DNA of 64,000 nucleotides from contig JADZEQ010000012.1 in assembly GCA_020850455.1 (NCBI GenBank), positions 1 to 64,000 of the forward strand. The letters run 5' to 3'. The DNA is from Sphingomonadaceae bacterium. Lineage in GTDB: Bacteria; Pseudomonadota; Alphaproteobacteria; Sphingomonadales; Sphingomonadaceae. The position numbers and the translations under genes are program-made. Shown one piece after another: positions 28,234 to 29,640 of this stretch; position 1 is the stretch's first letter; every line of letters begins with the position of its first letter. The notes under the pieces were generated by a model. That model was not told the origin of the DNA. It saw only the letters and a program-made list of their open reading frames with translations, and did not search any database.

Positions 28234-28266
28234 AAAGGGCCCTGCCGGTTTACCGACAGGGCCCTT
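28234..28266. terminator. Bidirectional intrinsic terminator between rpoC and pspC-like gene 1
   Basis: AAAGGGCCCTGCCGGTTTACCGACAGGGCCCTTTT: long GC stem with T run on both strands. Confidence 0.9.
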
Positions 28267-28340
28267 TTCGCATTGGGGCCGAAATCCGACCTATGGGCAA
28301 GGGGGGGGGAAGTTGGTCAGAAGCGCCCCAATGCGATGTC

Positions 28341-28562
28341 TCAATCTGCGACCAGCGCGATGATGAAATAGAGGATGGCAGGCAGGCCAAAGAAAAGGGT
28401 TGCTGCAACAAAACCGATCCGCGCAAATAACGGGTCGATCCCGAAATAATTGCCGATGCCAGCACAGACGCCGAGCAATTTGCCATTCGTTCGGTCGAGC
28501 ATGAATTTACGGGTCATCGATGGGCCTTTCATCGGGGTGCGGCTGCGGGTGGGGAGTGTCAT
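28341..28562 (-). CDS. PspC domain-containing microprotein (cassette 1)
   Basis: MTLPTRSRTPMKGPSMTRKFMLDRTNGKLLGVCAGIGNYFGIDPLFARIGFVAATLFFGLPAILYFIIALVAD; GVCaGIGxYFGIDPxxxRIxF PspC signature; ATG follows stop of sORF1 by 3 nt with AGGA at the junction. Confidence 0.88.
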   Translation of the reverse strand: MTLPTRSRTPMKGPSMTRKFMLDRTNGKLLGVCAGIGNYFGIDPLFARIGFVAATLFFGLPAILYFIIALVAD

Positions 28563-28565
28563 ATT

Positions 28566-28697
28566 TTATCCTACCAAATGGCTGGCAACCGCAATTTGCG
28601 GGGCAGCGGTTGAAGCGAAAATCATCGCGGTGGAAACCAGCGCCACGGCGGCGGCGGTGGCGTAGCTGGTGGCGGCGCGGAAATCGAAGCTGGTCAT
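28566..28697 (-). CDS. 43-aa membrane microprotein, paralog 1 (sORF1)
   Basis: MTSFDFRAATSYATAAAVALVSTAMIFASTAAPQIAVASHLVG; purine-rich SD GAAGGAAG; paralogous to 29176-29307 and 29338-29469. Confidence 0.8.
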   Translation of the reverse strand: MTSFDFRAATSYATAAAVALVSTAMIFASTAAPQIAVASHLVG

Positions 28698-28743
28698 ATT
28701 ATCTTCCTTCATATGCGGGCTGTGTGCCGGATATCTCAAGTAT

Positions 28744-28760
28744 TGCAGGAAGCGTGCCAA
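28744..28760 (-). promoter_or_regulatory. Sigma54 (-24/-12) promoter for cassette 1
   Basis: Minus-strand TTGGCACGCTTCCTGCA vs consensus TGGCACG-N4-TTGCW; located 47 nt upstream of sORF1 ATG. Confidence 0.75.
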
Positions 28761-28906
28761 ATTTGAAAATGGCGAAAAAGCGTAACTTTTCGAGATGCTG
28801 CTGTCGCCTAGATTGTGTAAAATACTAACTCGATACATATGAAGCCATGATTTGGGAATTTTCACCAGCAAGATCCCGCCGGTGAATTTTTCCTGTCGTC
28901 AAAAGC

Positions 28907-28938
28907 AAAGACCCCGCCGATGGAACGGCAGGGCCTTT
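28907..28938 (-). terminator. Intrinsic terminator after pspC-like gene 2
   Basis: Minus strand AAAGGCCCTGCCG TTCCAT CGGCGGGGTCTTT followed by GCTTTTGAC. Confidence 0.75.
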
Positions 28939-28962
28939 CGCTTTATCTGGAAAATCAAATGG

Positions 28963-29172
28963 TCAGTCGGCGATCAGGGCAATGGCGAAATAGATTAGCG
29001 CAATTTGTCCGGCGAACAGCGTGCCGACTAGAAATGCGATGCGTATCCACATCGGGTCAACGCCAAAATATTGGCCAATCCCCGAACAGACGCCCAGCAA
29101 TTTGCGGTTGGCGTGGTCGCGGCGAAAGCGGCGTATGGTTGTGGCGGCTGCGGCCGATTGGGTCGTGGCCAT
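28963..29172 (-). CDS. PspC domain-containing microprotein (cassette 2)
   Basis: MATTQSAAAATTIRRFRRDHANRKLLGVCSGIGQYFGVDPMWIRIAFLVGTLFAGQIALIYFAIALIAD; paralog of 28341-28562. Confidence 0.9.
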   Translation of the reverse strand: MATTQSAAAATTIRRFRRDHANRKLLGVCSGIGQYFGVDPMWIRIAFLVGTLFAGQIALIYFAIALIAD

Positions 29173-29175
29173 GGT

Positions 29176-29307
29176 TCAGGCGACCAGCGGCGCGCTGATG
29201 GCAAAGGCAGCGGCGTGGGTTGCGCCGAACAGCATCGCGGTGGCGACCAAGGCGGTGGCGCTGGCGGTGAGGTAGCTGGCGGCGGCGTTGAGATCAAACT
29301 TGCGCAT
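29176..29307 (-). CDS. 43-aa membrane microprotein, paralog 2 (sORF2)
   Basis: MRKFDLNAAASYLTASATALVATAMLFGATHAAAFAISAPLVA (own translation; below ORF-track cutoff); stop is 3 nt before the PspC ATG. Confidence 0.78.
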   Translation of the reverse strand: MRKFDLNAAASYLTASATALVATAMLFGATHAAAFAISAPLVA

Positions 29308-29337
29308 GAGGATGTTCCTTTTGGGGTGGGGAGCTGA

Positions 29338-29469
29338 TTAGGCAAAGGCCGGAGTGGCGAGCGCGATGACGGGGGCGTTGACCGCGCCAAAGATCATCAC
29401 GGTGGAAATCAGGGCAACGACAGCGGCGGTGGCGTAGCTGGTGGCGGATTGGATATCGAACTTGGTCAT
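29338..29469 (-). CDS. 43-aa membrane microprotein, paralog 3 (sORF3)
   Basis: MTKFDIQSATSYATAAVVALISTVMIFGAVNAPVIALATPAFA; SD AAGGAGA; start refined from the longer ORF 29338-29532, whose 5' part overlaps the sigma54 promoter. Confidence 0.8.
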   Translation of the reverse strand: MTKFDIQSATSYATAAVVALISTVMIFGAVNAPVIALATPAFA

Positions 29470-29515
29470 GGGTCTTCTCCTTAAAATGTGGCGAAATGCC
29501 AGATGCCAGACATTA

Positions 29516-29532
29516 TGCAGGAAGCGTGCCAA
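29516..29532 (-). promoter_or_regulatory. Sigma54 (-24/-12) promoter for cassette 2
   Basis: Identical 17-mer TTGGCACGCTTCCTGCA on minus strand, 47 nt upstream of sORF3 ATG. Confidence 0.75.
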
Positions 29533-29627
29533 GTGAAGAAATTGGCAGAAATTGGCCGAATTTTGCGCGTGCTCGTAAAATTATAGCGCGTAAATTGCCA
29601 AATATGGTGAAATATACCGACAGGGTG

Positions 29628-29640
29628 GTGAAAATTTCAC
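29628..29640. promoter_or_regulatory. Palindrome, candidate enhancer-binding (UAS) site
   Basis: GTGAAA-A-TTTCAC; GTGAAAATT half-site also present at 28857-28865 at near-equal distance from the other sigma54 promoter. Confidence 0.4.

Follow-up and report, generated by a model that had tools for sequence, protein, structure and literature searches.

Two consecutive gene cassettes, situated between rpoC and recF and encoded on the minus strand of a Sphingomonadaceae genome, probably serve as auxiliary effector operons within the PspF/sigma54 (phage shock) regulon. This assignment draws on their gene content, their promoters, a regulator box whose sequence and spacing are common with those upstream of pspA, their conservation and synteny, and the purifying selection detected in the microproteins they encode. 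The output of the Psp response has been described as very restricted, comprising the pspA operon and pspG (PMC3467454, PMC9239133), and in E. coli no further PspF target is established (PMC9239133).

The window, i.e., the whole stretch of DNA analysed (64,000 nucleotides), belongs to a genome of 2.35 Mb in 12 contigs, whose genus label, Sphingopyxis, was inferred from the names borne by its genus relatives. The genome encodes PspF (TIGR02974, 467.7 bits, above the cut-off), RpoN (PF04552, E 4.4e-64) and several further Sigma54_activat proteins. The divergent classical pspF/pspABC locus sits on a different contig, in agreement with the first-pass annotation, which had placed the cassettes outside any pspABC operon. 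Downstream of pspC at that locus (L004 6930-5705, minus strand) there are four tandem small single-TM ORFs, the first of which have a PspB/PspC-like tail (‘VERIVTD...LAxEIDALR’); none of them matched a Pfam family over its cut-off.

Both cassettes have the same order: sigma54-type promoter, one or two 43-aa single-helix microproteins, short PspC and terminator; every element of this tandem arrangement, as originally described, was found in the sequence at its minus-strand position. Cassette 2 faces the divergent recF (29648..30805, plus strand), a microsynteny kept across genera. It carries two PspF-type boxes (UAS), as seen in a matrix scan: a distal one (29626..29641) that includes the perfect palindrome 29628-29640, GTGAAATTTTCAC, and a proximal one (29605..29620), picked by the motif from other genera, 89 nt 5′ of the -24 element. 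They are followed by the -24/-12 promoter TTGGCACGCTTCCTGCA (29516..29532), which has orthologous counterparts in relatives, by sORF3 (MTKFDIQSATSYATAAVVALISTVMIFGAVNAPVIALATPAFA, 29338..29469), also kept in relatives, by sORF2 (MRKFDLNAAASYLTASATALVATAMLFGATHAAAFAISAPLVA, 29176..29307), by a 69-aa PspC that consists of the PspC domain only (28963..29172; PF04024 E 1.3e-19) and by a terminator hairpin (28907..28938; folding energy -28.9 kcal/mol over 28900-28945). Cassette 1 comprises a single box, TGGTGAAAATTCCCAA (28852..28867), 108 nt 5′ of the -24 element, a promoter 17-mer identical to that of cassette 2 (28744..28760), sORF1 (MTSFDFRAATSYATAAAVALVSTAMIFASTAAPQIAVASHLVG, 28566..28697), a 73-aa short PspC (28341..28562; PF04024 E 1e-17) and a terminator hairpin of 15 pairs with a T tract (28234..28267; -31.6 kcal/mol), beyond which lies the convergent rpoC (23933..28210, plus strand), kept in closer relatives (16 loci). 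The half-site 28857-28865 (GTGAAAATT) reported for cassette 1 is present, but the putative regulator site is the whole 16-mer 28852-28867. In both cassettes the PspC ATG follows 3 nt past the stop codon of the preceding microprotein (TGA-ACC-ATG and TAA-AAT-ATG). Between 28000 and 29900 no Rfam family reached its gathering threshold, and a PADLOC search returned no defence-system family; nothing thus points to a known RNA element or defence system here. The tandem duplication was found only in this genome and in one close relative (G043, contig KLAP6), with a single cassette in the other genomes examined, so that the ‘compact duplicated module’ of the first-pass annotation describes a peculiarity of these two genomes.

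The single cassette, on the other hand, is widespread. All examined short PspC genes of genus relatives are preceded, about 200-360 nt upstream, by a TGGCACG-N4-NTGC promoter, with one or two single-helix ORFs of 37-43 aa in between, and the same arrangement was seen in named genomes with a short PspC from Erythrobacter, Qipengyuania, Pelagerythrobacter, Altererythrobacter, Porphyrobacter, Altericroceibacterium and Novosphingobium. The pairing of a small ORF with PspC in relatives, on which the proposal had been staked beforehand, is therefore supported. A strict -24/-12 box precedes 52 of the 56 short-PspC genes vs none of the 52 full-length PspC genes (both samples pooled, within 600 nt; Fisher 1.6e-26, a descriptive value, given the non-independence of related genomes). 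Of the four exceptions, L113 carries a variant box, TTTGGCACGGGTTATGC, together with a microprotein-like ORF; the short PspC of L114 has no promoter. At two loci (L107 and L116) the short PspC lies right behind the sigma54 promoter, with recF upstream and no microprotein. When the search was started from the microproteins, with Erythrobacter-type queries only, 70 of 301 family genomes gave a match, and all 30 loci returned contained a short PspC and a divergent recF, 29 of them with the promoter. RecF adjoins 48 cassette entries (46 distinct) and rpoC adjoins 16; these counts identify the recF-linked cassette as an old, orthologous locus. In the whole 2.35-Mb genome, there are 11 strict TGGCACGNNNNYTGC sites, compared to 5 for the read-backwards control, and two of the 11 are the cassette promoters. 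With so few strict sites genome-wide, and with the set kept at orthologous loci in dozens of genomes, the cassettes represent more than chance. The -24/-12 promoters here and at the loci of relatives support the sigma54-type control predicted from the start.

The microproteins are without a recognised family. Profile searches against Pfam and NCBIfam gave no family over its cut-off for the three 43-aa ORFs, and up to E 0.1 there was no match to PspB (TIGR02976); in a test for PspG with the same limit, the microproteins had no NCBIfam match and the PspC ORFs matched PspC models only. Database entries, where there are any, read ‘hypothetical protein’, with no Pfam or NCBIfam model. The reading frame is nonetheless under purifying selection: among 16 sequences of the genus, pN/pS is 0.44 in frame and rises to 0.80 and 1.82 when the frame is shifted. 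Among 44 different sequences, 47 of the 50 K/R residues fall within the first 12 positions and two within the last ten, from which the microproteins should be single-span proteins with N-in/C-out topology. Their C-terminus follows a pattern as well: 41 of the 44 sequences end in three residues that are each hydrophobic or Gly/Ala, the penultimate residue is V/I/L/F/A/M in all 44, and the final one is A in 33; only 5 of 64 long ORFs of the window share that ending. AlphaFold predicted a single helix (residues 7-38) for sORF3, with mean pLDDT of 84. A comparison of Sphingopyxis-type with Erythrobacter-type microproteins for sequence homology gave an hhalign probability of 2%; the resemblance seen between the two types is in position, topology and C-terminal pattern.

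Similar microproteins occur beyond the cassettes. Four genomes possess an extra promoter with one or two microproteins and no PspC: G221, G296, G220 and G180 (loci L243, L244, L246/L247 and L251). A clear PspF-type box is present at these loci in three of the four genomes, that of G296 being TTGGTGAAATTTCCCAA, and in G180 no clear box is seen. Moreover, an unannotated single-helix ORF of 46-70 aa comes first in the classical pspA operon, between its promoter and pspA, in all 23 genomes of the genus (MTRRLSLLSQPLMAAMLLIPIVVALHQQMSDPLPAPIVSEAIGASAGRLA in our genome, L004 8591-8439, minus strand). These ORFs mostly end with a hydrophobic residue and Ala, and have pN/pS of 0.54 vs 0.97 and 1.19 in shifted frames (14 sequences). 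They were also found in 9 of 11 genomes from other genera of the family (six genera), and by the same criteria were absent from the examined members of other families of the order. A microprotein is thus the usual first gene of the predicted PspF transcript in the family Sphingomonadaceae. The first-pass annotation had described the microprotein as a dedicated partner of PspC; its occurrence at PspC-free promoter loci and the presence of a different one at the head of the pspA operon imply that it is not simply that.

A first position on the transcript is also what would be expected of a cis-acting leader peptide of the TnaC/SecM kind, where its translation, or ribosome pausing at the hydrophobic-hydrophobic-Ala-stop, governs how the coupled downstream gene is translated and no membrane role is involved. 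We consider this unlikely, despite a number of features that fit it: the microprotein is always the first on the transcript, the spacing from promoter to ATG varies little, its last residues are conserved across very different sequences, the PspC ATG follows its stop by 3 nt or overlaps it, and one such ORF also precedes pspA. Yet no PspC gene is found behind the microprotein at the loci in four genomes, two or three tandem copies are common, and 137 nt separate the leader ORF from pspA in our genome. The confinement of K/R to the N-terminus, together with a full hydrophobic helix, does not suit the leader role either. Furthermore, the helix of a peptide of 33-43 aa is still inside the ribosome while its end is being made, i.e., these peptides are too short for the helix to exit by then.

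The PspC proteins of the window are of an unusual, short type. Both ORFs pass the PF04024 cut-off (64.1 and 70.1 bits vs 25) and fall short of the full-length PspC equivalog TIGR02978 (48.3 and 54.5 bits vs a cut-off of 104). They end directly after the membrane part, in contrast with the PspC of the pspABC locus in the same genome, which is full length with a C-terminal tail, and the PspC core GVC-G / R is conserved in the short proteins. A sequence search of the PDB found no PspC relative, and the AlphaFold model of the short PspC (mean pLDDT 57) was too weak for use. The proteins correspond to the E. coli fragment PspC1-68, which lowers the proton-motive force and neither binds PspA nor induces psp; in E. 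coli the C-terminal leucine-zipper part of PspC is needed for both PspA binding and psp induction, and the contact with PspB lies in the membrane (TM) part (PMC3068692). Since they have no PspA-binding tail, the short PspCs should be unable to report to PspA. When PspB is missing, PspC becomes toxic and FtsH degrades it, and how PspB and PspC protect the membrane is an open question (PMC3467454).

A direct partnership between the microprotein and the short PspC would fit this picture, though we put it forward tentatively, as somewhat short of an even chance. The tight coupling of the two ORFs could also be read as a toxin-antitoxin-like pair, in which the microprotein neutralises a short PspC that does harm in the membrane, consistent with the toxicity of PspC without PspB and its degradation by FtsH (PMC3467454) and with the lowering of pmf by E. 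coli PspC1-68 (PMC3068692). This reading appears improbable to us, given the strict synteny of a single locus with recF, the box of a stress activator in front of it, and the existence of microproteins without PspC as well as of PspC without a microprotein (L107 and L116).

The cassettes are linked with the Psp response by their regulator box. EM on the DNA upstream of cassettes from other genera produced a motif that reads TTGGGAAATTTCACCA, or TGGTGAAATTTCCCAA in the other orientation. Applied to pspA promoters that it had not seen, it found sites in all 23 same-genus genomes; relative to the -24 element they lie at -90 to -92, and every one reaches p<=0.05 when compared with 60 dinucleotide shuffles (floor 0.016). 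Among unseen cassettes of the same genus, 20 of 24 had a site, mostly at -90; the distance in cassette 1 is 108 nt, vs 92 for pspA. With the matrix from other genera, the three cassette sites rank 1st (cassette 1, 28852-28867), 2nd (distal, 29626-29641) and 4th (proximal, 29605-29620) in the 64-kb window, and the two sites before pspA come 1st and 2nd in the 16 kb of the pspA locus. In E. coli, the top choices of this matrix upstream of pspA and pspG are TAGTGTAATTCGCTAA and TAGTCAAATTCACCAC, respectively, and PspF is known to bind these two promoters (PMC3709507). Binding of PspF to the cassettes is thus what we infer from the recurrence of this UAS, at the same distance, upstream of pspA, and the connection with the PspF/Psp envelope-stress response, suspected in the first-pass annotation, gains support at the sequence level.

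Genome-wide, the regulon was sought by pattern matching. The best TGGTGAAATTTCCCAA match in all 2.35 Mb is the box of cassette 1, with 1 mismatch. There are 23 box-like sites, and a -24/-12 box follows downstream only for cassettes 1 and 2, pspA, glnB and one weak intragenic site. Searching simply for the palindrome GTGAAANTTTCAC gave no more than two genomic positions and passed over the pspA site; as the motif shows, this palindrome is one form of a looser box. Boxes have diverged in places: those of L044, L054 and L055 are not significant, and the Novosphingobium sites lie at -70. None of the 19 family genomes without PspF has an Erythrobacter-type microprotein, compared to 70 of 282 with PspF (p 0.009; 301 genomes), a test of low power, given the near-universal presence of PspF and the relatedness of the genomes. 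The glnB gene (G000:C10, ~121 kb; L210) has the -24/-12 promoter TGGCACAATTTCTGCA with a box-like site 57 nt upstream; it is probably NtrC-controlled and makes a useful sigma54 positive control. That sigma54 acts on the cassettes together with an enhancer-binding protein other than PspF is very improbable: the genome does encode further Sigma54_activat proteins and the UAS spacing is 108 in cassette 1 vs 92 at pspA, but in 23/23 genomes the box agrees in identity and spacing with that of the pspF-pspA intergenic region, the boxes resemble E. coli PspF sites, and the box-like site of glnB, the one likely NtrC target found, is spaced differently.

With PspF as the activator, the system may operate as follows. 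Upon damage to the inner membrane, the full-length PspB/PspC sensors, encoded elsewhere in the genome, would pull PspA off PspF, and the freed PspF would bind boxes of the TGGTGAAATTTCCCAA type, some 90-110 nt upstream, and thereby open the -24/-12 promoters of pspA and the cassettes alike. Each cassette transcript would then yield one or two N-in/C-out single-helix microproteins and, by translational coupling, a short PspC reduced to its cytoplasmic and membrane parts, which, lacking the C-terminal PspA-binding tail, would not report to PspA and might serve as a membrane effector only. The microprotein helix may sit beside the short PspC or reinforce the membrane; the most likely role of the co-translated helix would be that of a PspB-like stabiliser, steadying or restraining the short PspC as PspB does full-length PspC. 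A microprotein standing alone would also have a membrane role of its own. Effector activity is our conjecture.

Extending this to the Sphingomonadaceae/Erythrobacteraceae as a whole, practically every PspF-driven transcript would open with a single-helix microprotein ending hydrophobic-hydrophobic-Ala, and these proteins would form a new class of phage-shock effectors, several per genome, acting with a sensor-dead PspC; we see the chances for and against this generalisation as evenly balanced. If true, the output of the Psp response is larger than the textbook pspA operon and pspG. The cassettes also present a natural split of the two roles of PspC, with a full-length sensor in pspABC and an apparently effector-only PspC in a PspF operon of its own, which makes the effector function of PspC directly testable in laboratory strains.

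PspF, sigma54, the PspC domain, small membrane proteins and an orphan PspF target such as PspG are of already known kinds. The recF-linked PspF operon of leader microprotein(s) and a sensor-dead PspC, and the microproteins that head pspA and the PspC-free loci, were absent from the database models and the papers searched. Literature searches, which covered few subscription journals, gave no paper joining PspC, sigma54 and Sphingomonas, or ‘PspC domain-containing protein’ with Sphingopyxis, and a system of this sort does not appear in the recent surveys on partners of Psp that were searched (PMC11237479, PMC9239133).

Among known proteins, E. coli YohP is comparable in description: it is shorter than 50 aa, consists of a single helix, is linked to stress and is tied to the Psp response (PMC12719787). 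YohP, however, induces Psp, whereas the microproteins are predicted to be induced by PspF. PspB, the partner of PspC, is likewise a small, single-span inner-membrane protein, but the microproteins did not match it and have, instead of its cytoplasmic C-terminal helix, a short hydrophobic end predicted to be outside. The short PspCs share with the PspC of pspABC (TIGR02978, PF04024) the domain with its conserved core; unlike it, they lack the C-terminal tail of ~50 residues present in the PspC of the same genome, and reach about half of the full-length cut-off. A parallel in gene organisation is enterobacterial PspG, a small inner-membrane protein whose gene, under PspF control, stands by itself outside pspABC (PMC9239133). 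PspF control of the cassettes is predicted from sequence and they show no match to the PspG family; in contrast to pspG, they are linked to recF, may occur in tandem and carry microproteins together with a PspC-domain protein.
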